Shown here: in pieces, positions 3,949-16,223 of the stretch
Layout: each line of letters opens with the position of its first letter
Position numbering within the stretch: position 1 is the stretch's first letter
Assembly (NCBI GenBank): GCA_947624395.1
Contig: CANQKA010000005.1
Location: forward strand, 1-47,926
Source: an uncultured Oscillospiraceae bacterium
GTDB lineage: Bacteria > Bacillota > Clostridia > Oscillospirales > Oscillospiraceae
Length of the DNA stretch: 47,926 bases
Direction of reading: 5' to 3'
The notes under the pieces: generated by a model
Seen by the model: only the letters and a program-made list of their open reading frames with translations
Databases searched by the model: none
What the model was told of the DNA's origin: nothing
Position numbers and translations under genes: made by a program

Positions 3949-4025
<77 letters not shown>

Positions 4026-4070: not shown

Positions 4071-5310
4071 ACCAGTGTTTCTCAGGAGCTGCAAATAGAG
4101 CCTTGTCCAAAGCGGCTAAGTCCATCTTATAATACTTCTCTTTTCCGTCTTTTACTGAGAGGAGGAGAGAATGTTCATTAACGAAATCCAATTTCTTGCG
4201 GATCGTCCCGCTGCTAAGGTTCATATTGCTCATTAGTTCTTTCATGGTTATCCCCTGCTCACCGAACAGTGCTGCTTGTACAAGCAGACTATATAGCCTC
4301 CGCATGTGGGGAGAACTGCCATCCGGTAACTCTGATGCAGCGTTTTCATAGCGTTCCCAACTGATACACTTTCTGTCCAGGGACGCATGCAGTTCCATAG
4401 CAGCATCCCGGATCATCCCAAGCATCATAAGGAGAAATGGCGTCAAGTCGCCCATATTATGGGGATCGTTACAGATTTTGAACGCTTCGTAATAATCCTT
4501 GACATTTTCCTTGATCGTCTCTGAGATTCGATATGCAAGCAGGGGCGTCATGGTCTCTGCGATATAATAGCTCACAATGAACCGACCAAGCCGACCGTTT
4601 CCATCATAAAACGGATGGATGTATTCCAGCAGATAGTGAAACAGACATATACGATACATGCTATCGATCGTGTCATCATGCAAAAACGCCAGCGCCTTTT
4701 CCAGAGACGCTATAATGGCGCTTTCCGGCGTCAGGCCTGAATGTATGACCCTGTCTGTTACACTGCAGACCGTTGCCTGATCTTTCCTGAATATCCGACC
4801 GTCTGGCAGGTTGTTCTTGTTCTCGGCAACAACTTCTGCCAGAACAAGCTCGTCATAAAGGGCACGGACATCGTTACAGCTGGATAGGGACACTTTCTCA
4901 TTCCGAAGGAGCTTATTATACTTATTTACCATTCCAAGGAACCGGGGCGCACGCTTCTTTTTTGCCGATTGCTCCTCTAAAACTGTCAGTGCCGCGCCAA
5001 TTTCTTTCCTGCTGCTGTATACGCCTTCAATGTCATTTGTTATCACGATCTCATCGATAAGGCATTTTCTGGAATACTGTTGTAGGGCCTTTCCTGGGAG
5101 AAAGCTACACAGTCTGGAGATTTCCTTGTCCAGGCGAAGGATGTTGAACATAAGTTCAGCGACCTCGTTGCTGGCTACGAAAAACGCGGGCATACCTGCG
5201 ATGGAGAAATCTATCTTGGTGGTCCACTCCGAGTCAAAACGGGCTCTGTATGTCTTTTTATAGTCCTCTTTGTCGCCGTAATAGAGCTTTCTCAACGATT
5301 CATATGCCAT
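4069..5310 (-). CDS. Fic family protein (AMPylase-type, class II inhibitory motif)
   Basis: Predicted to transfer a nucleotide monophosphate (usually AMP from ATP) to a target protein; 413 residues. The core motif HPFYDGNGRLGR is complete at about 232-243. An N-terminal inhibitory helix motif TNDIEG (about 91-96) matches the (S/T)xxxE(G/N) class II rule, so activity should be self-restrained. A C-terminal winged-helix-like region (GITMKELMSNMNLSSGTIRKKLDFV) is common in Fic proteins of this group. Start ATG 5310 has a GGAGGCGATCAT leader; an upstream extension is unlikely. The gene lies alone in the islet bounded by repeated tRNA 3' ends and has lower GC than udk-tdk, which suggests transfer. 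The target is unknown. Confidence 0.9.
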   Translation of the reverse strand: MAYESLRKLYYGDKEDYKKTYRARFDSEWTTKIDFSIAGMPAFFVASNEVAELMFNILRLDKEISRLCSFLPGKALQQYSRKCLIDEIVITNDIEGVYSSRKEIGAALTVLEEQSAKKKRAPRFLGMVNKYNKLLRNEKVSLSSCNDVRALYDELVLAEVVAENKNNLPDGRIFRKDQATVCSVTDRVIHSGLTPESAIIASLEKALAFLHDDTIDSMYRICLFHYLLEYIHPFYDGNGRLGRFIVSYYIAETMTPLLAYRISETIKENVKDYYEAFKICNDPHNMGDLTPFLLMMLGMIRDAAMELHASLDRKCISWERYENAASELPDGSSPHMRRLYSLLVQAALFGEQGITMKELMSNMNLSSGTIRKKLDFVNEHSLLLSVKDGKEKYYKMDLAALDKALFAAPEKHW

Positions 5311-5350
5311 ATGATCGCCTCCTTCACAAAAACGGGTCGAAATTGAGTGT

Positions 5351-5864: not shown

Positions 5865-5878
5865 CTCCCGCCACCAAA
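5865..5878 (+). repeat. tRNA 3'-end direct repeat, copy 2 (putative attR)
   Basis: The same 14 bases as 4014-4027, without the rest of a tRNA. It is followed at once by a 19-bp hairpin terminator (5876-5917), which may be the original terminator of the tRNA before the islet was inserted. Confidence 0.65.
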
Positions 5879-7203: not shown

Positions 7204-7725
7204 TTATTTCTCTGAAGACCAGTCCATGTAGCGGCGCCGGATATTGCCGAGAACCTTCTCTAACTGGTATACGCTCATATCCAACGCTCTGGATGTCTCC
7301 TTTCTCCCGTACCCAGACATCCGAAGAAGGACCATCTGCCTCTCGTTGTCAGGCAGAGACGCCAGGAACTCGACCACTGACAGCCTGCTGAAATCAGAGA
7401 GATGTGAGTGTAAGATACTGTACCCATTGACACCGTCATTCTTGGCGCCGGCGATGATGGCATCCAGCGAGAAATGGCCAAACAGCATGGATGGCGTCTT
7501 CCGGTTCAGAGCGTCCATGTACGCAGAAAACAGGTCCCAATAATCTTTGAAGAAATGACCCGTTGTCAGCGGCATGGAACGAAGCATCTCAACAAGAAAC
7601 AGCAACGCTTCAGCCACCCTGTCCTCATATTCCAGATTGAGCCATCTCCTCTGACAAAGGCCCCTTATGACCGGGAGCGCGGCTGAAACGATCCTGTCCT
7701 CAGCCGTCTCACCTGCGCTTGCCAT
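7204..7725 (-). CDS. Sigma-70-like / region 4 HTH protein
   Basis: 173 residues. The C-terminal 50 residues read as sigma region 4: LPDNERQMVLLRMSGYGRKETSRALDM followed by a basic recognition helix ending in RRRYM. The middle (LDAIIAGAKNDG... SILHSHLSDFSRLSVVEF) is weakly region-2-like at best. It may be a small ECF-like sigma factor or a mobile-element regulator. Start ATG 7725 lies inside the end of the 142-aa gene (17-base overlap), with GGAG upstream, so the two genes are translationally coupled. The operon is divergent from the type I R-M operon and shares its control region, so a role in regulating that locus is possible but unproven. Confidence 0.6.
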   Translation of the reverse strand: MASAGETAEDRIVSAALPVIRGLCQRRWLNLEYEDRVAEALLFLVEMLRSMPLTTGHFFKDYWDLFSAYMDALNRKTPSMLFGHFSLDAIIAGAKNDGVNGYSILHSHLSDFSRLSVVEFLASLPDNERQMVLLRMSGYGRKETSRALDMSVYQLEKVLGNIRRRYMDWSSEK

Positions 7726-8137
7726 CCTTCAACTCCTTCAGAATACTATCCTCTGCGGACTTGCTGATCCGCCGCGGATTTTTGGCCGGCGGGCGCTTTT
7801 TCGGCGCCGGGGCCTGCAGCTCGGCGATCCAGCAGTTATCCTCCTTGCGCATGGCATATCGCGCCGGAAGAACGATGCCTGCGGAGATGATGTGTTTGAC
7901 CAACTCCGGGCCGCAAATCTTGCCGCTTTTTGGAAGCGTGTACCTGGACGCAGGGTCCTCCACGACGCAAACAGTCTTGCCGTCCGGCTTTATGCCGATT
8001 TTGATATGAGACGGCAGCACCTCCCGGGCCGGACGGTTGAACGTAAAGCCGCCTGTCTCCGACACGTTGATCGTCATCGCTGGCGGCTTGGGCCCCAAAT
8101 CAAACCAAATAAAGTCCTCAAATTTAATGTTTGGCAT
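7709..8137 (-). CDS. Hypothetical 142-aa protein coupled to the sigma-like gene
   Basis: Not recognised. 142 residues: an N-terminal beta-rich part (TINVSETGGFTFNRPAREVL, then IKIGIKPDGKTVCVVE), a middle helix (GPELVKHIISAG) and a lysine/arginine/proline-rich tail (PKKRPPAKNPRR) likely to bind nucleic acid or be disordered. Start ATG 8137 has AAAGGAGG 7 bases upstream and a good promoter at 8168-8196. It is the first gene of a two-gene operon with the sigma-like protein. A regulatory or partner role for the sigma-like protein is inferred only from coupling. Confidence 0.6.
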   Translation of the reverse strand: MPNIKFEDFIWFDLGPKPPAMTINVSETGGFTFNRPAREVLPSHIKIGIKPDGKTVCVVEDPASRYTLPKSGKICGPELVKHIISAGIVLPARYAMRKEDNCWIAELQAPAPKKRPPAKNPRRISKSAEDSILKELKDGKRR

Positions 8138-8167
8138 ATTAATCCTCCTTTTTTGGGGACTGGAGGA

Positions 8168-8196
8168 ATCATAGGGGAAAACCGGCGAAATGTAAA
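8168..8196 (-). promoter_or_regulatory. Promoter of the 142-aa/sigma-like operon
   Basis: Minus strand: -35 TTTACA (8191-8196), 17-base spacer, -10 TATGAT (8168-8173). Its -35 is 2 bases from the left arm of the 20-bp inverted repeat. Confidence 0.75.
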
Positions 8197-8197
8197 G

Positions 8198-8241
8198 ACG
8201 CTTAATTTAATCATTTTCGCAAAAATGATTAAATTAAGCGT
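8198..8241. promoter_or_regulatory. 20-bp perfect inverted repeat between divergent promoters
   Basis: Left arm 8198-8217 and right arm 8222-8241 are perfectly complementary over 20 bp with a 4-base loop; core sequence ACGCTTAATTTAATC. It lies exactly between the two -35 boxes and its last base is the first base of the rightward TTGACA. As DNA it suits a repressor or activator controlling both operons. It is not a terminator: there is no T-run after either arm and no gene upstream needs one. Confidence 0.7.
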
Positions 8242-8270
8242 TGACAGGTACCTATTTCCAGAGATATAAT
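8241..8270 (+). promoter_or_regulatory. Consensus promoter of the fic-hsd operon
   Basis: Perfect -35 TTGACA (8241-8246), 18-base spacer, perfect -10 TATAAT (8265-8270), 35 bases before the fic start. Such a strong promoter before an R-M operon suggests that a repressor acts here. Confidence 0.85.
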
Positions 8271-8305
8271 CGAAGCGTGATAAGTTCTTTTGTCCAGGTG
8301 ATTTT

Positions 8306-9364
8306 ATGCGCAATTACGACTTTACTAGCAGATATGACACCCTTCTCTGCCCTGACATCGTGGCGCTTCTGTCCCAGATCCACGAGTTCAAGGGCGAGCA
8401 GGCCAAGCTCATGGGCGCCAAGGAGGACACGCTCACCCAATTGGTGGAGATCGCTAAAATCCAAAGCACAGAGGCATCCAACAAGATCGAGGGGATTTAT
8501 ACCTCGGACGAGCGGCTGAAGAAGATCGTTCGGGAGAAGACCATGCCCATGACCCGCAGCGAGAGGGAGATCGCAGGTTACAGGGACGTTCTGGCTGCCA
8601 TCCACGAAAGTTATAACTATATTCCTCCGCGGCCCTCCGTCATTTTGCAGCTGCACCGGGACCTCTATAAATACAGCGGTCTCTCCATTGGCGGGCACTA
8701 TAAGAATTCCGACAACATCATCGAGGAAACAGACGCCGCAGGGAACCAAACAGTGCGCTTTCAGCCAGTCCCCGTCTGGGAAACCTCCGAGGCCATGGAC
8801 CGGCTGTGCACGGCCCATGACGAGGCTCTGCGGGACCCGGCGCTGGACCCGCTGCTGCTCATGCCAGTATTCATCCTGGACTTTCTCTGCATCCATCCTT
8901 TCAACGACGGCAATGGCCGCATGAGCAGGCTTCTGACACTGTTGCTCCTGTACCGGGCCGGTTACGCCGTCGGGAAATACATCTCCATTGAGCGGCTCAT
9001 TGAGGCATCCAAAGAGACCTATTACGAGGCACTGCAGGAAAGCTCCGCTGGATGGCATGAGAACGCCAACGACTACGCCCCCTTTGTCCGGTATATGCTG
9101 GGCGTGGTAGTGGCGGCCTACCGGGAGTTTAACGATCGGGCGCGGCTGCTGACCGCCCCGGAGCTGTCCAAGCCCGACCGGGTACGGGCCATCATCAGGG
9201 GAACGCTTGGGAAGATCACCAAGGCGGAGATCATGGAAAAGTGCCCGGACATCGCCCAGATCACCGTGCAGCGGGCGCTGAGCGAGCTGGTGAAGGCCGG
9301 CGAGATCATCAAAATCAGCGGCGGACGATATACGTCGTACACTTGGAACAGGGAGAGAGACTGA
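8306..9364 (+). CDS. Fic family protein, first gene of the type I R-M operon
   Basis: 352 residues. Core motif HPFNDGNGRMSR (197-208) is complete, so nucleotide transfer is expected. Class II inhibitory motif SNKIEG (58-63) is present. The N-terminus (LLSQIHEFKGEQAKL) and the C-terminal winged-helix region (ITKAEIMEKCPDIAQITVQRALSELVKAG) match the Fic/winged-helix group. Start ATG 8306 has AGGTGA upstream. It ends one base before hsdM and is clearly co-transcribed with it. Known type I loci do sometimes carry accessory genes, including Fic genes. Whether it modifies an Hsd subunit, a phage protein or a host target cannot be told from sequence. Confidence 0.92.
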   Translation: MRNYDFTSRYDTLLCPDIVALLSQIHEFKGEQAKLMGAKEDTLTQLVEIAKIQSTEASNKIEGIYTSDERLKKIVREKTMPMTRSEREIAGYRDVLAAIHESYNYIPPRPSVILQLHRDLYKYSGLSIGGHYKNSDNIIEETDAAGNQTVRFQPVPVWETSEAMDRLCTAHDEALRDPALDPLLLMPVFILDFLCIHPFNDGNGRMSRLLTLLLLYRAGYAVGKYISIERLIEASKETYYEALQESSAGWHENANDYAPFVRYMLGVVVAAYREFNDRARLLTAPELSKPDRVRAIIRGTLGKITKAEIMEKCPDIAQITVQRALSELVKAGEIIKISGGRYTSYTWNRERD

Positions 9365-9365
9365 C

Positions 9366-10862
9366 ATGGTGACGGGAGAACTGAAAAACAAAATCGACAG
9401 CCTCTGGGAGATATTCTGGACCGGCGGTCTAACCAACCCCCTGGACGTGATCGAGCAGATGACATACCTCATGTTCATCCACGACCTGGACGAGGCGGAC
9501 AGCCTTAGGGCCAGGGAGAGCGCCATGCTGGGTTTGCCCTACGAGAGCATGTTTCCCCCGGAGGTACGGATCGGTGGGCGGACTGTGGACGGCAGCCAGC
9601 TGAAATGGAGCGTGTTCCACGACTTTCCCGCCGGCAAGATGTACTCTGTTGTCCAGGAATGGGTGTTCCCGTTCATCAAAGAACTGCACGGCGACAAGCA
9701 GAGCGCTTATTCCAAGTACATGTCCGACGCCATCTTCAAGCTGCCCACGCCGCTTATCCTGGACAAGGTGGTCACGGCCATGGACGGCATCTACGAGCAG
9801 ATGGAGCAGGTCAAGTCCTCCGATGTGCGGGGCGACGTGTACGAGTATCTGCTGTCCAAGCTCTCCACCGCCGGTGTCAACGGCCAGTTCCGCACGCCCC
9901 GGCACATCATCCGCATGATGGTGGACATGCTTGGGCCACGGCCGGACGACACGGTCTGCGACCCGGCCTGCGGCACCTCCGGCTTTCTGGTGGCCGTCAG
10001 CGACTATCTGAAAGAAAATCGCAAAGCGGACGTGTTTTTTGACCGGCAGAACAAGGACCACTATATGAATCACATGTTCCACGGCTACGACATGGACCGG
10101 ACCATGCTCCGCATCGGCGCCATGAACATGATGACCCACGGCGTGGACAACCCCTTTATCGAGTACCGGGACAGCCTCAGCGACCAGAACCCGGACCGGG
10201 ACAAGTATTCCATGATCCTGGCCAATCCCCCCTTCAAGGGCAGCCTGGACGCGGACATCGTCAGCACGGACCTTTTGAAGGTCTGCAAGACGAAGAAAAC
10301 GGAGCTGCTGTTTCTGGCGCTGTTCCTGCGGATGCTCAAAGTGGGCGGCCGCTGCGCCTGCATCGTCCCGGACGGGGTGCTGTTCGGTTCCTCCAAGGCC
10401 CACAAGGACATTCGGAAAGAGCTCATCGAGCACAACCGTCTGGAGGCCGTGGTGTCCATGCCCTCCGGGGTGTTCAAGCCCTACGCCGGCGTGTCCACCG
10501 CCGTGCTGGTGTTCACAAAGACCGGCCACGGCGGCACGGATAAGGTCTGGTTTTATGACATGCGGGCCGACGGCTTCAGCCTGGACGACAAGCGCACGCC
10601 CACGAAAGAAAACGACATTTCTGACATCGTGACCCGGTTTCACGACCTGGCCGCTGAGGGATCCCGCACCCGCACGGACCAGAGTTTTCTCGTCCCCAAG
10701 GACGAGATCGCCGGGAACGATTACGACCTGTCCATCAACAAGTACAAAAAGACCGAGTACGTCCCCGTCCAGTACCCGCCCACCAGCGAGATCATGGCGG
10801 AGCTGAAACAGTTGGAAGCCGAGGTCGGCAAGAGCTTGGCAGAGTTGGAGGCGATGCTATGA
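9366..10862 (+). CDS. hsdM: Type I restriction-modification system methyltransferase subunit
   Basis: N6-adenine DNA methyltransferase subunit, 498 residues, the normal HsdM length. An N-terminal helical HsdM_N domain (ELKNKIDSLWEIFW...VIEQMTYLMFI) is followed by the SAM-binding motif DPACGTSGF (199-207) and catalytic NPPF (287-290). It works with HsdS to methylate the recognition site and with HsdR to cut unmethylated DNA. The ATG at 9366 is one base after the fic stop, with GGGAGAG upstream; the end overlaps hsdS by 4 bases (ATGA). GC is close to the core genome, unlike hsdS. Confidence 0.97.
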   Translation: MVTGELKNKIDSLWEIFWTGGLTNPLDVIEQMTYLMFIHDLDEADSLRARESAMLGLPYESMFPPEVRIGGRTVDGSQLKWSVFHDFPAGKMYSVVQEWVFPFIKELHGDKQSAYSKYMSDAIFKLPTPLILDKVVTAMDGIYEQMEQVKSSDVRGDVYEYLLSKLSTAGVNGQFRTPRHIIRMMVDMLGPRPDDTVCDPACGTSGFLVAVSDYLKENRKADVFFDRQNKDHYMNHMFHGYDMDRTMLRIGAMNMMTHGVDNPFIEYRDSLSDQNPDRDKYSMILANPPFKGSLDADIVSTDLLKVCKTKKTELLFLALFLRMLKVGGRCACIVPDGVLFGSSKAHKDIRKELIEHNRLEAVVSMPSGVFKPYAGVSTAVLVFTKTGHGGTDKVWFYDMRADGFSLDDKRTPTKENDISDIVTRFHDLAAEGSRTRTDQSFLVPKDEIAGNDYDLSINKYKKTEYVPVQYPPTSEIMAELKQLEAEVGKSLAELEAML

Positions 10863-11983
10863 TGGCAAGACTGGGGGATTTGGGTGAAATAATTACAGGA
10901 AACACACCAAAAACTTCTGAACCTGAAAACTATGCATCAGATGACATATGTTTTGTAAAGCCAAGCGATATTTCAGATGGGAACGTTACTATAATCGAGC
11001 GCTCTGAATTTTATATTTCAGAGCATGCCAGGAAAAAAGCCAGAATTCTCCCCCCTGGCAGCGTATTGGTCACATGCATCGGTATTATTGGCAAGGTCGC
11101 AATCAACAGCGTAGAATGTGCGTTTAACCAACAAATCAATGCTATTATTCCCGACAAAAGTAAATGCACAACCGAATATCTGGTATATGCGATCCAATCT
11201 CAAAAAAAACAACTGCAAAGCATTGCGAACGCGCCCGTAGTTCCTATAATCAATAAATCACAGTTTTCCGATATCACGATCCCTGTTCCCACAATATCTC
11301 AACAGAAATATATATCTTACACTCTGGAAAATGTTTCACGTTTAATTTTCCTACATAAGCAGCAACTATCTGATTTGGACAAGCTCATCACGGTCCGATT
11401 TGTTGAAATGTTTGGTAATCCAGCAAAAAATGATTATGCATGGGAACAACAAGAGATGTACAAAGTCGCTCCTGTTGATGCCGCGTCTGGCGTAAAATCG
11501 GGTAGTATATGGCTGCTTAACTTAGATGCGATAGAGCCCAACACGGGGAGGATTATTGATTATTATTATACGGATATCAGTAATGTTGGAGCATCCACAT
11601 ATGCATTTGATACTGAAAATGTTTTGTATTCTAAGTTGCGCCCGTATCTAAATAAAGTTGTTGTCCCAAGACAAAGCGGATACTGTACTACAGAGTTAAT
11701 TCCGCTACGACCCAACGAAAGATTAAATAAGCAATTCTTGGCATTTCTACTTAGAAGCGATTCTTTTGTAGCATACATAAATGAAAAAGTCACGGGAGCG
11801 AAGATGCCTCGTGTTTCAATGGACGTGTTTAGAGAGTATAAATGCATCTTACCGCCCATTGATCTTCAAAACCAGTTCGCCGACTATGTCACCCAAGTTG
11901 AAAAATCAAAAGCCGCCGTACAGAGCGCGCTGGACAAGGCCCAGCTGCTCTTCGACAGCCTGATGCAGAAATATTTTGGATGA
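10859..11983 (+). CDS. hsdS: Type I restriction system specificity subunit
   Basis: Target-recognition subunit, 374 residues. It has two recognition domains: the first about 1-150 (LGDLGEIITGNTPKTS start, ITIPVPTISQQKYIS end), the second about 195-345 (VAPVDAASGVKSGSIW... YKCILPPIDLQNQFADYV end). Each is followed by a conserved helix (LDKLITVRFVEMFGNP; SALDKAQLLFDSLMQKYFG). It starts by a 4-base overlap with hsdM. The body is much richer in A/T than hsdM and hsdR, while its last 80 bases return to high GC, as expected if the recognition domains were swapped in by recombination. The DNA sequence recognised cannot be predicted. Confidence 0.95.
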   Translation: MMARLGDLGEIITGNTPKTSEPENYASDDICFVKPSDISDGNVTIIERSEFYISEHARKKARILPPGSVLVTCIGIIGKVAINSVECAFNQQINAIIPDKSKCTTEYLVYAIQSQKKQLQSIANAPVVPIINKSQFSDITIPVPTISQQKYISYTLENVSRLIFLHKQQLSDLDKLITVRFVEMFGNPAKNDYAWEQQEMYKVAPVDAASGVKSGSIWLLNLDAIEPNTGRIIDYYYTDISNVGASTYAFDTENVLYSKLRPYLNKVVVPRQSGYCTTELIPLRPNERLNKQFLAFLLRSDSFVAYINEKVTGAKMPRVSMDVFREYKCILPPIDLQNQFADYVTQVEKSKAAVQSALDKAQLLFDSLMQKYFG

Positions 11984-11992
11984 GGTGAAAAT

Positions 11993-12943
11993 ATGTCATT
12001 CTCTCAAAAGATTTTGGTTATTATACAGTTTTGCAAAAAATGTGCAAAACGTGTGTTCAAGACTGTAAAATTTGAAGGCGGTACATATCATGTTAATCTC
12101 TCAGATAAACTGAGGATTGTATCTCATGAAATATGCGGATTATTTAACAGGCAATTCCATAGAATTTCAGAGATCGTTGTTCGTGACAACCGATACACAT
12201 TGAGCATTGTATTAGTTTTATGGATTGTATTCATTCTTATTTCGTGGTATTGGGGATTACAGCGTAACGGCGCTTTCTCTCTTGGAGATGCAATATGGGA
12301 CGCGAGAAACCCGTTCTTTACGTCCGTCGTAGTCGTAGTAATTGTGAATGCATATGGACGGGCAAAAGTGCATAGAACCAAATTGTATACACAACATCAA
12401 ATCTATGTGAATCTAATGAGAGGATTTGACGTCGGCTTATTTGAGTCATTCATTGATGGAAATCTATGTAACTATATGCCATTCTACTGCAAAAAGACTT
12501 TAGATGATACTCTGGCATATTGCCACCATTGTTTTGAAGAAAAGCAATACTTAGATGCTACAGATTACGATTTCACACAACGCGTCAGTAATTTGAATTC
12601 TGAATTAAGTAGAGCTGAAGACGCATTTAATCATGATAGTTTTGTAGGGATATGGGATCCCGTGTCGGCTTTGACGCTGATTAGAGAAATTGAAGATAAA
12701 CTTGAAAATATACGAATTTCACAAAAATTGTACTATTTTGATCTTCAAGATATCTCTGTTGATTTTTTGCTACTGACGGACATGATGCGTCGTCCTTGGC
12801 GCTGGAATATAAAGAACAAAATGAAGATTTTAAAGATACTTTCAAAATATCCAAATAATTTGATAGCTGATGATTTTTATTACACCATGTTACTTTCCGG
12901 GCATGAGTTCCCGGACAAGGTGCCCTCCTATGACCAATTTTGA
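11993..12943 (+). CDS. Hypothetical membrane protein inside the hsd operon
   Basis: 316 residues; no family recognised. A basic N-terminal part of about 65 residues is followed by two hydrophobic segments (LSIVLVLWIVFILISWYW; PFFTSVVVVVIVNAYG). A long soluble C-terminal domain comes next with scattered Cys/His (YMPFYCKKTLDDTLAYCHHCFEE) and a helical acidic region. Start ATG 11993 has AGGTG 7 bases upstream and lies 10 bases after hsdS; its end overlaps hsdR by 14 bases, so it belongs to the operon. It is A/T-rich like hsdS. Position between hsdS and hsdR and membrane anchoring suggest an accessory defence effector or a protein that places the complex at the membrane; both are inference. Confidence 0.65.
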   Translation: MSFSQKILVIIQFCKKCAKRVFKTVKFEGGTYHVNLSDKLRIVSHEICGLFNRQFHRISEIVVRDNRYTLSIVLVLWIVFILISWYWGLQRNGAFSLGDAIWDARNPFFTSVVVVVIVNAYGRAKVHRTKLYTQHQIYVNLMRGFDVGLFESFIDGNLCNYMPFYCKKTLDDTLAYCHHCFEEKQYLDATDYDFTQRVSNLNSELSRAEDAFNHDSFVGIWDPVSALTLIREIEDKLENIRISQKLYYFDLQDISVDFLLLTDMMRRPWRWNIKNKMKILKILSKYPNNLIADDFYYTMLLSGHEFPDKVPSYDQF

Positions 12944-15900
12944 TTTCCTCCTATCCTCCCCCGACTTTGCCTCCTTTGGGGAGGTGGCGGCGTCGGCGGA
13001 GAAGCTGCTGCATATGGACCTGGACGCCTGCGTACTCAACTGCCGCAGAGCGATGGAGTTCGCCGTCAAGTGGATGTACTCTGTGGACAAGGACCTGGAA
13101 ACGCCCTGGCAGAGCACGCTGGTGAGCCTCATGAACGCCGAGGCCTTCCGGGACATCGTAGGCGCAGACATATGGCGGCGGATGGATCTCATCCGCAAAA
13201 TCGGCAACAACGCCGCCCACGGCGGGAAGAATGTCACGCGGGAGCAGGCGGAGCTGTGCCTGGAAAACCTCTTTGTATTTCTGGACTTCGTGGCATACTG
13301 CTACGGCGAAAACTATACGGAGGGGACCTTTGACCGCTCGCTGCTTCAACAAGAACTCCAGACAGCGCCGACGATACCGCCAGAGGTAGAGGCGGACCTG
13401 GAAAAGCTCATGGCAGAGAACCGGGCTCTCAAGGAAGAGCTTTCCGCCCGCCGGACCCAACAGCAGCAGACCTATGTACCCAAGCCTTTGGAGCTGTCCG
13501 AATATGCCACCCGCAAGCTCTATATCGACCAGATGCTCACGGACGCCGGCTGGACCGAGGGCAAGGATTGGCTGAACGAGGTGGAGTTGTCCGGCATGCC
13601 CAACCAAAGCGGGGTGGGCTATGCCGACTATGTGCTCTACGATAACGACGGTCGCGCCCTGGCGGTCATCGAGGCCAAGCGCACTTGCGTGGATGTGTCC
13701 AAGGGCCGTCAACAGGCATCGCTGTACGCGGATATCATTGAGAAAAAGCAGGGCCGCCGGCCTGTCGTATTCCTCACCAACGGCTTTGAGACCCGCATCG
13801 TGGACAATCAATATCCCGAGCGGAAGGTGGCGGCCATCTACTCCAAGCGGGACCTGGAAAAGCTGTTCAACCTCCAGACCATGCGTTCCAGCCTGAAAAA
13901 CATCGTGGTGGACCGGGCTATCGCCGGGCGCTACTATCAGGAGGGCGCCATCAAGGCGGTGTGCGACGCCTTTGGGCGAAAAAACCGCCGCAAGGATCTG
14001 CTGGTCATGGCCACCGGCTCCGGCAAGACCCGGACCGTCATCGCCCTCACCAAAGTCCTGCTGGAACAGGGCTGGATCAAAAACGTTCTCTTCCTGGCCG
14101 ACCGCAACAGTCTGGTCACCCAGGCCAAGCGCAGTTTTGTCAACCTCCTGCCCGACTTCTCCGTCACGAACCTGTGCGAGGAAAAGGACAACTACACCGC
14201 CCATGGGGTATTCTCCACATACCAGACCATGATGAACTGCATCGACACGGTCCGGGACGAGGAAGGAAAACTGTTCACCTGCGGCCACTTCGACCTGGTC
14301 ATCTGCGACGAGGCCCACCGCTCCATCTACAACAAATACAAGGATATCTTCACATACTTCGACGCGCCCCTGGTAGGCCTCACCGCCACACCCAAGGACG
14401 AGATCGACAAGAACACCTATAACGTCTTCGAGCTGGGCCCCGGCGAACCCACCTACGGCTACGAACTGGCCCAGGCGGTGAAGGATGGGTATCTGGTGGA
14501 CTTTATGTCGGTGGAGACCACGCTGAAGTTCATCCAGGAGGGCATCATATACGACGAGCTGTCCGAGGAGGACAAGCTGGCCTATGAGGACACCTTTGAG
14601 GACGAAAACGGCGAGCTGCCGGAGCGCATCGCCTCCTCCGCCCTCAACGAGTGGATATTCAATGAGGACACCATCCGCCAGGTGCTGCATGTGCTCATGA
14701 CGGAGGGCCTCAAAATCGACTACGGCAACAAGATCGGCAAGACCATCGTCTTTGCGAAGAATCACGCCCACGCGGAAAAAATATTGGAGGTATTCGGCAA
14801 GGAATACCCCCATCTGACCGGTTATGCAAAGGTCATCGACAACCACATCAAATATGCCCAGAGCGCCATTGACGAATTCTCGGACCCGGACAAGCTGCCC
14901 CAGATCGCCATCTCCGTGGACATGCTGGACACCGGCATCGACGTGCCGGAGGTGCTGAATCTGGTGTTTTTCAAAAAGGTCATGAGCAAGGCCAAGTTCT
15001 GGCAGATGATCGGCCGGGGCACCCGGCTTTGCCCGGGGCTCATCGACGGCGAGGACAAGAGCAAATTCTATATCTTCGACTTCTGCGGCAACTTTGAATT
15101 CTTCCGCATGAACAAAGACCGGCCCACCGCCAACATGATTGCCCTGTCCGGCGCTATCTTCCAGCTGAAGGCGCAGATCGCTTTCAAGCTACAGGACCTG
15201 GCCTATCAGACGCAGGAGCTGATCGCCTTCCGCGCCTCGCTGGTGGAGGATATGGCGGGCAAGGTCCGGGAACTGAACCGGGAGAATTTCGCCGTGCGGC
15301 AGCATTTGAAATATGTGGCGCTATACGCCGAGCCAAGCAATTACCAGACGCTCACCTATGAGGACACACTGCTCATGGGCCAGGAGCTGGCGCCGCTGAT
15401 CGTGCCGGAGCGGGATGACCCCAAGGCGCTGCGATTCGACGTGCTGATGTATGGCATCGAGCTGGCATATCTGGCAGGAAAGAAGCGCACCCGCGCCCGC
15501 AACGACCTTTTGAAGAAAGCGGCCGCCGTAGCAAGCGTCGCCAACATCCCGGCGATCATGATGCAGGCGGAGCTGCTCAACAAGCTCCTGCACACGGATT
15601 ATCTGGACAACGCCGGTATCAACGAGTTCGAGCTCATCCGGCAATGCCTGCGGGACCTGATAAAGTATATCCCCGTCGTAAATCTCCGGTATGACACGGA
15701 TTTTGGGGACACGATCCTGTCCATGGACTGGAAGGACGCCGATCTGGACAGCGATGAGCTGCAGGGGTACCGGTTCAAGGCAGAACACTATGTGCAGCAC
15801 CATCTGGACAATGCCGCCATCGCCAAGCTACGCAGCAATGTGCCGCTGACCGAAGCGGACGTGAAACAGTTGGAGGACATTCTCTGGAGCGAGGTGGGCA

Positions 15901-16223
15901 CGCGCCAGGATTACGAGGCGGAGTTTGGTTCCAAGCCCCTGGGCGAGTTTGTCCGGGAGATCGTGGGGATGGATATGAACGCCGCCAAGGCTGCCTTTGC
16001 GGAATACCTGGAAAGCGCGAATCTGGACAGCCGCCAAATTTACTTCGTCAACCAGATCGTGGAGTACATCGTCCACAACGGACTGATGAAGGATCTGTCC
16101 GTGCTGCAGGAGCCCCCCTTTACCGACCAGGGCAGCATCGTGGAGGTGTTTACGGACCTGTCCGTTTGGATGGGCATCCGCCGGATCATCGACCGCATCA
16201 ACGCCAACGCCAAGGCGGCATAG
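12930..16223 (+). CDS. hsdR: Type I restriction endonuclease subunit R (EcoEI-like)
   Basis: DNA translocase and nuclease, 1097 residues. Domains in order: an N-terminal DUF4145-like helical domain (about 10-115), a coiled linker (about 150-180), the PD-(D/E)xK nuclease with D233 and EAK (248-250), and SF2 helicase lobe 1 with Walker A GSGKT (K366) and DEAH (460-463). Lobe 2 contains IGRGTRLCPG, and an EcoEI-type C-terminal region follows. All key residues are present, so the system should be active. The ATG at 12930 begins the DUF4145-like homology and overlaps the membrane protein gene by 14 bases; upstream in-frame starts are rejected. Followed by four hairpins. Confidence 0.95.
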   Translation: MTNFDFLLSSPDFASFGEVAASAEKLLHMDLDACVLNCRRAMEFAVKWMYSVDKDLETPWQSTLVSLMNAEAFRDIVGADIWRRMDLIRKIGNNAAHGGKNVTREQAELCLENLFVFLDFVAYCYGENYTEGTFDRSLLQQELQTAPTIPPEVEADLEKLMAENRALKEELSARRTQQQQTYVPKPLELSEYATRKLYIDQMLTDAGWTEGKDWLNEVELSGMPNQSGVGYADYVLYDNDGRALAVIEAKRTCVDVSKGRQQASLYADIIEKKQGRRPVVFLTNGFETRIVDNQYPERKVAAIYSKRDLEKLFNLQTMRSSLKNIVVDRAIAGRYYQEGAIKAVCDAFGRKNRRKDLLVMATGSGKTRTVIALTKVLLEQGWIKNVLFLADRNSLVTQAKRSFVNLLPDFSVTNLCEEKDNYTAHGVFSTYQTMMNCIDTVRDEEGKLFTCGHFDLVICDEAHRSIYNKYKDIFTYFDAPLVGLTATPKDEIDKNTYNVFELGPGEPTYGYELAQAVKDGYLVDFMSVETTLKFIQEGIIYDELSEEDKLAYEDTFEDENGELPERIASSALNEWIFNEDTIRQVLHVLMTEGLKIDYGNKIGKTIVFAKNHAHAEKILEVFGKEYPHLTGYAKVIDNHIKYAQSAIDEFSDPDKLPQIAISVDMLDTGIDVPEVLNLVFFKKVMSKAKFWQMIGRGTRLCPGLIDGEDKSKFYIFDFCGNFEFFRMNKDRPTANMIALSGAIFQLKAQIAFKLQDLAYQTQELIAFRASLVEDMAGKVRELNRENFAVRQHLKYVALYAEPSNYQTLTYEDTLLMGQELAPLIVPERDDPKALRFDVLMYGIELAYLAGKKRTRARNDLLKKAAAVASVANIPAIMMQAELLNKLLHTDYLDNAGINEFELIRQCLRDLIKYIPVVNLRYDTDFGDTILSMDWKDADLDSDELQGYRFKAEHYVQHHLDNAAIAKLRSNVPLTEADVKQLEDILWSEVGTRQDYEAEFGSKPLGEFVREIVGMDMNAAKAAFAEYLESANLDSRQIYFVNQIVEYIVHNGLMKDLSVLQEPPFTDQGSIVEVFTDLSVWMGIRRIIDRINANAKAA

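Follow-up and report, generated by a model that had tools for sequence, protein, structure and literature searches.

What is a Fic gene doing at the head of a type I restriction-modification operon, and does a membrane protein gene lodged between hsdS and hsdR belong to the same design? Both questions are raised by the operon fic-hsdM-hsdS-membrane protein gene-hsdR in the window, by which we mean the whole stretch of 47,926 nucleotides (nt) analysed here, contig 5 (CANQKA010000005.1) of the assembly GCA_947624395.1 from an uncultured Oscillospiraceae bacterium. The source genome is a draft of 2.06 Mb in 131 contigs and is about 83% complete. Our comparisons suggest that the operon is probably controlled by its own first gene, with the Fic protein acting as an autorepressor at a dyad operator, and that it carries an exchangeable cargo slot. 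As far as we know, the regulation of type I restriction is poorly understood outside Gammaproteobacteria, and there is mostly no explanation for what the many winged-helix Fic proteins do; both questions would become directly testable through a Fic that serves one restriction operon and has a readable operator, a base of which covaries with a protein residue.

A putative operator accompanies the Fic gene

The region before fic contains a palindrome and a promoter that were absent from the original prediction, an earlier note on this DNA. The regulatory features are as follows.

8168..8196, minus strand: divergent sigma70-like promoter (TTTACA-17-TATGAT, 10/12 in a consensus scan), which abuts the palindrome and reads towards a gene of 142 amino acids (7709-8137)
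8198..8241: palindrome with perfect 20-nt arms and a 4-nt loop, containing the putative operator
8204-8213 and 8226-8235: half-sites of the operator core, AATTTAATCA and its inverse, with a spacer of 12
8241..8270, plus strand: fic-hsd operon promoter (TTGACA-18-TATAAT, 12/12 consensus), similarly placed in many relatives

HsdM, which does not presuppose fic, was used as the query against GTDB genomes, and the best 80 of 586 confirmed relatives were kept; the 80 loci are therefore close relatives, and several are truncated by contig ends. In 52 of the 80, hsdM is preceded by an orthologous fic, which is at most 33 nt away in 43 loci and at most 66 nt away in 45, and the 52 include loci titled Fretibacterium, Alloscardovia and Spirochaetales besides Clostridia. 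Two culturable relatives, Flavonifractor sp. An82 (L050) and Blautia sp. MSJ-19 (L088), show this order of fic and hsdM. Judged by this gene order, Fic is integral to much of this type I operon lineage. When the 260 nt before fic were scanned in 50 loci (the window and 49 of the 52, as L082, L095 and L099 come without upstream DNA), palindromes were similarly placed in most, and the common half-site is AATT-N5N6N7-TCA with its inverse, 11-13 nt apart. Scored on these half-sites (AATT-NNN-TCA and inverse, spacer 11-13, cut-off at least 14 of 17), the operator was present in 44 of 50 fic-hsdM upstream regions, while shuffled sequences gave a mean of 0.38 and a maximum of 3. At the 28 hsdM loci lacking fic, only one region before hsdM passed the same cut-off (that of L073, where a site 121 nt upstream has 15 points), and none of the 18 regions that precede the adjacent upstream open reading frame (ORF) did so.

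The same pattern was seen when Fic proteins rather than hsd loci were counted. L038 (broken reading frame) and the duplicates L005, L006 and L011 were excluded from the Fic set. Of 67 distinct hsdM-linked Fics, 61 had an operator scoring at least 14, and perfect operators were found at 32 of all 100 Fics. The operator also occurs at Fics with no hsdM within 1.5 kb, namely L007, L010 and L114 (67-70% identity) and, in weaker form, L120 and L139; of 33 such Fics, 5 have it and the other 28, mostly more distant, are without it. By these counts, the putative operator travels with Fic rather than with hsdM. In L007 and L010 the fic gene stands by itself, with a ParA-like gene in its neighbourhood. 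The Pfam scan of upstream genes covered 20 of the 28 fic-less loci and found a different Fic in three (L091, L094, L103), helix-turn-helix (HTH) proteins in two (L049, L110) and, in L043, an AlbA_2 protein with a Fic-like C-terminal domain; the remaining 14 belong to unrelated families or have no match.

The position of the operator relative to the promoter is also regular. In 43 of 69 rows (including three duplicates), no more than 3-5 nt separate the upstream operator from the start of the -35 element, the distance in the window being 5 bp, and at 21 Fics, about a third of the relatives, a second operator lies 61-74 nt downstream (about 67 bp), mostly beyond the -10 element. In the examined part of the window's own genome, no copy with up to three mismatches was found besides the one before fic, and on this count the regulator looks local. 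The bases N5-N7 differ among loci, and within an operator they are fully symmetric in 43 of 66 cases.

Two further genes share the palindrome region. A sigma-region-4-like gene of 173 amino acids and the 142-amino-acid gene (together 7207-8137, minus strand) diverge from fic; in the retrieved sequence of the 80 hsd loci, L033 alone showed relatives (78-80%). At Fics without hsdM, generic upstream dyads such as TTCTCGTCAA-N11 and TTCTGCACAA-N13 are suggestive, but many are no better than shuffles. Several of the more distant Fics L025-L031 (43-46% identity, no hsdM nearby) have an upstream dyad with the half-site CCCTTA, so that Fic autoregulation may be general.

An operator base covaries with the predicted recognition helix

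The Fic protein of the operon carries the catalytic motif HPFNDGNGRMSR at residue 197 and the inhibitory motif SNKIEG at residue 58; with HPFxDGNGRxxR and an N-terminal [ST]xxxE[GN] both present, it is a predicted class II Fic protein. Its AlphaFold2 model (pLDDT, the model's confidence score, 87) contains a winged helix with helices 289-299, 306-312 and 318-330 and strands 334-337 and 344-347, and residue 318 opens the helix predicted to be the recognition helix (318-330). This residue is Q in the operon's Fic and K in the Fics of L046 and L067. The VIA-align lists barely tested residues 286-352 of Fic.

Mutual information between Fic columns and operator bases placed residue 318 first for N5, and residues 322 and 318 first and second for N6. 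Stratification by overall identity in the sequence other than the C-terminal domain put residue 318 first and residue 322 third among 206 variable columns. With 33 edge-disjoint pairs from a tree of the Fic domain only, residue 318 was again first among the 211 columns for N5 (phi 0.65, uncorrected p 0.0004). Predictions were fixed beforehand and then checked on 25 new Fics. The operator was expected at new Fics with at least 58% identity and was found at 9 of 10; L122, printed as 58% but below the cut, is outside this count and has no operator. N5=T was expected with Q318/Q322 and was found in 6 of 6 half-sites from three loci. In these statistics, operator base N5 and residue 318, within the predicted recognition helix of Fic, vary together.

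Of 100 Fics, 90 have an undamaged HPFxDGNGRxxR motif and 98 have the inhibitory motif. Ten Fics depart from the catalytic motif, and 8 of them are hsdM-linked, with changes that include H to Q, H to R, D to N, D to A and G to E. Seven of these 8 keep the operator (score 14-17) and a similar winged helix, and only L044 has lost the operator. The DNA-binding role thus appears able to outlive catalysis, although the sequences come mostly from draft assemblies. L044 also has a RhuM-Fic protein (11643-12641) between hsdM and hsdS; its cluster comprises 8 ORFs in 7 loci, of which the L044 member alone was Pfam-scanned.

Fic as the probable repressor of the operon, and other explanations

Taken together, the Fic-linked operator by the promoter, the covariation of N5 with residue 318 and the operators kept by damaged Fics make Fic most likely an autorepressor of the operon. 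The direction of control is taken to be repression because two precedents, the Fic protein CccR and the type I operon repressor RptR, both repress. In the mechanism that we propose, a Fic dimer would bind the upstream operator, plus the downstream operator where two exist, and would repress fic-hsdM-hsdS-cargo-hsdR. Fic would thereby set the dose of restriction and release it on some signal, and the occupants of the slot between hsdS and hsdR would be exchanged together with hsdS. In one apo structure of Sofic the C-terminal domain is twisted outward compared with the structure of an ATP-bound homologue (PMC12249575), and the nucleotide state of Fic might reach the DNA-binding part by a similar twist. 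A wider reading, which we regard as possible but doubtful, is that winged-helix Fics are a widespread class of enzyme-repressors by which nucleotide state or AMPylation would govern how far type I restriction and its exchangeable cargo are expressed. On infection, self-AMPylation or the binding of ATP would turn the C-terminal domain away from the operator, and one protein would sense, de-repress and possibly kill.

Several results weigh against an autorepressor that reads its operator through residue 318. When the spacer may range over 2-26, the shuffle mean is 2.48 and a score of 14 is also attained at 5 of 28 fic-less loci; 6 of 67 hsdM-linked Fics fall under the cut-off (five score 13 and one has no operator), and among 66 best operators, 23 lack full symmetry at N5-N7. 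On the edge-disjoint pairs, columns 124 and 326 are close behind residue 318 for N5 (phi 0.61), residue 318 itself drops to rank 16 for N6 and rank 10 for N5 and N6 combined, and residues 322 and 319 are unsupported; pairs from supported branches of the tree were too few for significance. A further prediction on the new Fics, that E322 goes with N6=C, held in 2 of 3 cases, short of its 80% mark. Most of the sequences compared are draft metagenome assemblies. Since most Fics keep the catalytic motif, catalysis is probably selected as well. A single operator centred near -57, as in the window, could also activate.

This last point is the basis of the view that Fic is an activator which, from a site upstream of the -35 element, recruits RNA polymerase like a C-protein or a class I activator; many loci, the window included, have only the upstream operator at the cut-off. 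We give this view little credence, since many of the promoters are near consensus and should not need an activator, 21 Fics have the second operator 61-74 bp downstream and mostly beyond the -10 element, and the closest precedent, CccR, is described as a repressor (PMC9755527). It is also unlikely that AMPylation is central, with Fic modifying an Hsd subunit or serving as a back-up toxin once restriction is blocked (a PrrC- or PARIS-like guard) and the winged helix only autoregulating the toxin; control of restriction by AMPylation had been offered as a possibility in the original prediction. The preservation of the motifs (90 and 98 of 100) speaks for such a role, as do the action of Sofic in abortive infection (PMC12249575) and the match of the PADLOC SoFic model to the window Fic at 7e-37; yet the 8 hsdM-linked Fics with an altered motif still precede hsdM and 7 keep the operator, and Fic is first in an operon whose operator is the sole copy in the examined part of the genome. 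The evidence favours DNA binding through the C-terminal winged helix of Fic.

Two other explanations seem to us very improbable. The palindrome might be an RNA hairpin or terminator, or the site of a host regulator unrelated to Fic, and its perfect 20-nt arms and a scan that flags it as terminator-like on the minus strand would agree with this. It lies upstream of the -35 element, however, and what is conserved across loci is the half-sites and their spacing; the site is nearly always absent without fic, is present at some Fics without hsdM, and covaries at N5 with the Fic recognition helix. The membrane protein might be a dedicated partner of a Fic-Hsd complex, since its gene belongs to the operon, follows hsdS after 9 nt and overlaps hsdR by 14 nt, but no relative was found at the 80 hsd loci or in the other collections searched, its GC content is 36%, and the breakpoints in conservation fall at the ends of the gene. 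An autorepressing Fic at the head of an operon with exchangeable cargo accounts best for these observations, and the operator motif could be used to find further Fic-controlled defence operons.

The operon is intact in the window

Pfam and PADLOC both identify Fic, HsdM, HsdS and HsdR among the products of the operon, whose genes are as follows.

8306..9364, plus strand: fic, class II Fic with a C-terminal winged helix-turn-helix (Pfam PF02661, motifs, AlphaFold2 model)
9366..10862, plus strand: hsdM, type I methyltransferase subunit (Pfam HsdM_N/N6_Mtase, PADLOC)
10859..11983, plus strand: hsdS, specificity subunit in an exchangeable cassette, GC 41% (Pfam Methylase_S)
11993..12943, plus strand: gene of the 316-amino-acid membrane protein, orphan cargo of the hsdS-hsdR slot, GC 36%
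12930..16223, plus strand: hsdR, restriction/translocase subunit with an N-terminal DUF4145 (Pfam HSDR_N/ResIII/EcoEI_R_C)

The five-gene order with tight junctions was confirmed as the original prediction had described it, with +1 nt between fic and hsdM, -4 nt between hsdM and hsdS and +9 nt between hsdS and the membrane protein gene. The catalytic motifs that it had called intact were all located (besides those of Fic, including the class II inhibitory motif, NPPF at 287 in HsdM and ATGSGKT at 361, DEAH at 460 and QMIGRG at 692 in HsdR), so that hsdM, hsdS and hsdR are all there with their catalytic motifs. The five genes form a predicted type I restriction-modification operon that is real and intact, and its description as a composite defence-type operon is supported. 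The longest hsdR ORF begins at 12870; the start at 12930 (MTNFDF...), which gives the 14-nt overlap, is most likely the true one, because at the DNA level similarity to the two closest relatives picks up again at 12918 and matches start no more than three residues into the 12930 version in 57 of 80 loci (the query itself began there). The N-terminus of HsdR (12930-13300) has a DUF4145 (HEPN-like) domain preceding the nuclease domain. PADLOC and NCBIfam matches to MADS were rejected as general HsdM/HsdS similarity, and no long flanking direct repeat was found around the island.

Elsewhere in the window, a second SoFic-like Fic gene (4072-5313, minus strand) adjoins a tRNA-Met (3949-4025). The 14 nt at the tRNA 3' end, CTCCCGCCACCAAA, are repeated near 5866 (by eye), and the gene may therefore lie in a small tRNA-integrated insert.

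The membrane protein gene occupies a variable slot

The closest relatives, L032 and L033 (HsdM 94% identical), show how the middle of the operon differs from its ends. At the DNA level, fic-hsdM and hsdR are 85-89% identical to theirs. Identity disappears in the part of hsdS that encodes the recognition domains, reappears over some 140 nt at the hsdS 3' end, vanishes again in the membrane protein gene and, in both comparisons, is back at 12918, 12 nt before hsdR. In the slot L032 has an AlbA_2 protein and L033 a 166-amino-acid protein without a Pfam family. The GC content is 58-60% in fic, hsdM and hsdR vs 41% in hsdS and 36% in the membrane protein gene. The gene thus sits in the hsdS-hsdR slot, and close relatives that differ in hsdS differ here too. 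Among 57 loci with all three hsd genes, 48 have at least one non-hsdS ORF of at least 100 amino acids between hsdS and hsdR, and these add up to 79 ORFs, which fall into 54 groups (raw ORF calls, linkage at 1e-5). Examples from the scanned hsdM-hsdR intervals are DUF3990, DUF3800, DUF559, DUF2806, DUF2971, HipA-like and AlbA_2 proteins and a tyrosine integrase.

The 316-amino-acid protein had been read as having two transmembrane segments, which is plausible: one segment (71-89) is clear, and the second (108-126) is weaker and only probable. Its use as a query for the five-gene order, as had been proposed, gave no relatives: none were found among 295 genomes of the order, 291 of the class, plasmids and phages, or among solved structures, and in GTDB and IMG/VR contigs, filtered first by peptide pattern, 22 and 11 stretches matched and none was confirmed. 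A tblastn search over the 80 hsd loci gave no match at E 1e-3, and the best value against 191 non-hsdS ORFs downstream of hsdM in these loci (E 0.012) was taken as chance. The protein had no match in PADLOC or NCBIfam and none above the curated cut-off in Pfam, where a Reticulon match (E 0.0038, 17.6 bits vs a cut-off of 31.8) was rejected as a match of hydrophobic segments. The suggested structure prediction was uninformative, the single-sequence fold having a pLDDT of 37, which is useless.

Both extra genes had been called integral, a claim that was to fall if homologous hsd operons usually lacked both and the two occurred at random elsewhere. The claim stands for fic, which is usually kept, and not for the membrane protein gene, which was found in 0 of 80; from these comparisons, the 316-amino-acid protein is one occupant of a variable cargo slot. 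It is probably an additional defence effector, and by analogy with TgvAB, the rlo genes and PrrC, cargo proteins of this kind may be further effectors; the orphan occupants of the slot are candidate defence genes.

Two other contents of these loci are recorded here. In L104 (14343-16256), a PARIS-like AriAB protein lies between hsdS and hsdR. A tyrosine-integrase cluster, of which the L040 member alone was Pfam-scanned, is present in the hsd loci L040, L043, L044, L063, L064, L065, L081, L086, L088 and L089; a second hsdS-like gene adjoins it in many, which makes specificity shuffling likely.

Comparison with known systems

A variable hsdS-hsdR slot, head-gene repressors of type I operons and a Fic-HTH autorepressor are already known separately. 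In the open-licence PMC literature, we found no report of a Fic regulator or repressor dedicated to type I restriction operons; a Histophilus somni type I locus is listed with a Fic gene and an Abi gene, with no function ascribed to them in the portion of that paper available (PMC3339403). The closest Fic precedent is CccR of Yersinia pseudotuberculosis, a dimer that binds the palindrome AGATAATCAT-N26-ATGATAATCT at its own promoter and represses (PMC9755527). Like the window protein, CccR has a Fic domain, an N-terminal inhibitory helix, a C-terminal HTH and a palindrome at its own promoter, and its site shares AATCAT with the window site (PMC9755527). Its half-sites are 26 bp apart, whereas they are 12 bp apart here and 11-13 in the family, and CccR is a secreted effector of the type VI secretion system that is also active in recipient cells, the accessible text naming no restriction operon as a target (PMC9755527).

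RptR resembles the window Fic in its place, as the first gene of type I operons that carry other defence genes between hsdS and hsdR, in that case DarTG2 (PMC12255303). It is, however, a 9-kDa helical protein of Gammaproteobacteria that acts at TAGCTA repeats (PMC12255303), whereas the window has a Fic enzyme with a predicted winged helix and a dyad of about 32 bp, and no TAGCTA was seen in 8138-8305 (by eye). The window Fic also falls outside SoFic proper, with 16-18% identity and 52.5 bits against the equivalog NCBIfam NF046030, whose cut-off is 550; Sofic is described as a single-protein abortive-infection system (PMC12249575), unlike the operon-heading Fic here. Extra genes inside type I loci are known from rlo/mlo of Campylobacter (PMC5183652), TgvAB (PMC11411939) and PrrC (PMC12707154), and the rlo genes and TgvAB are likewise lodged between hsdS and hsdR (PMC5183652, PMC11411939). 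What sets the present operon apart from these loci is the orphan membrane protein in its slot and the putative Fic regulator at its head.

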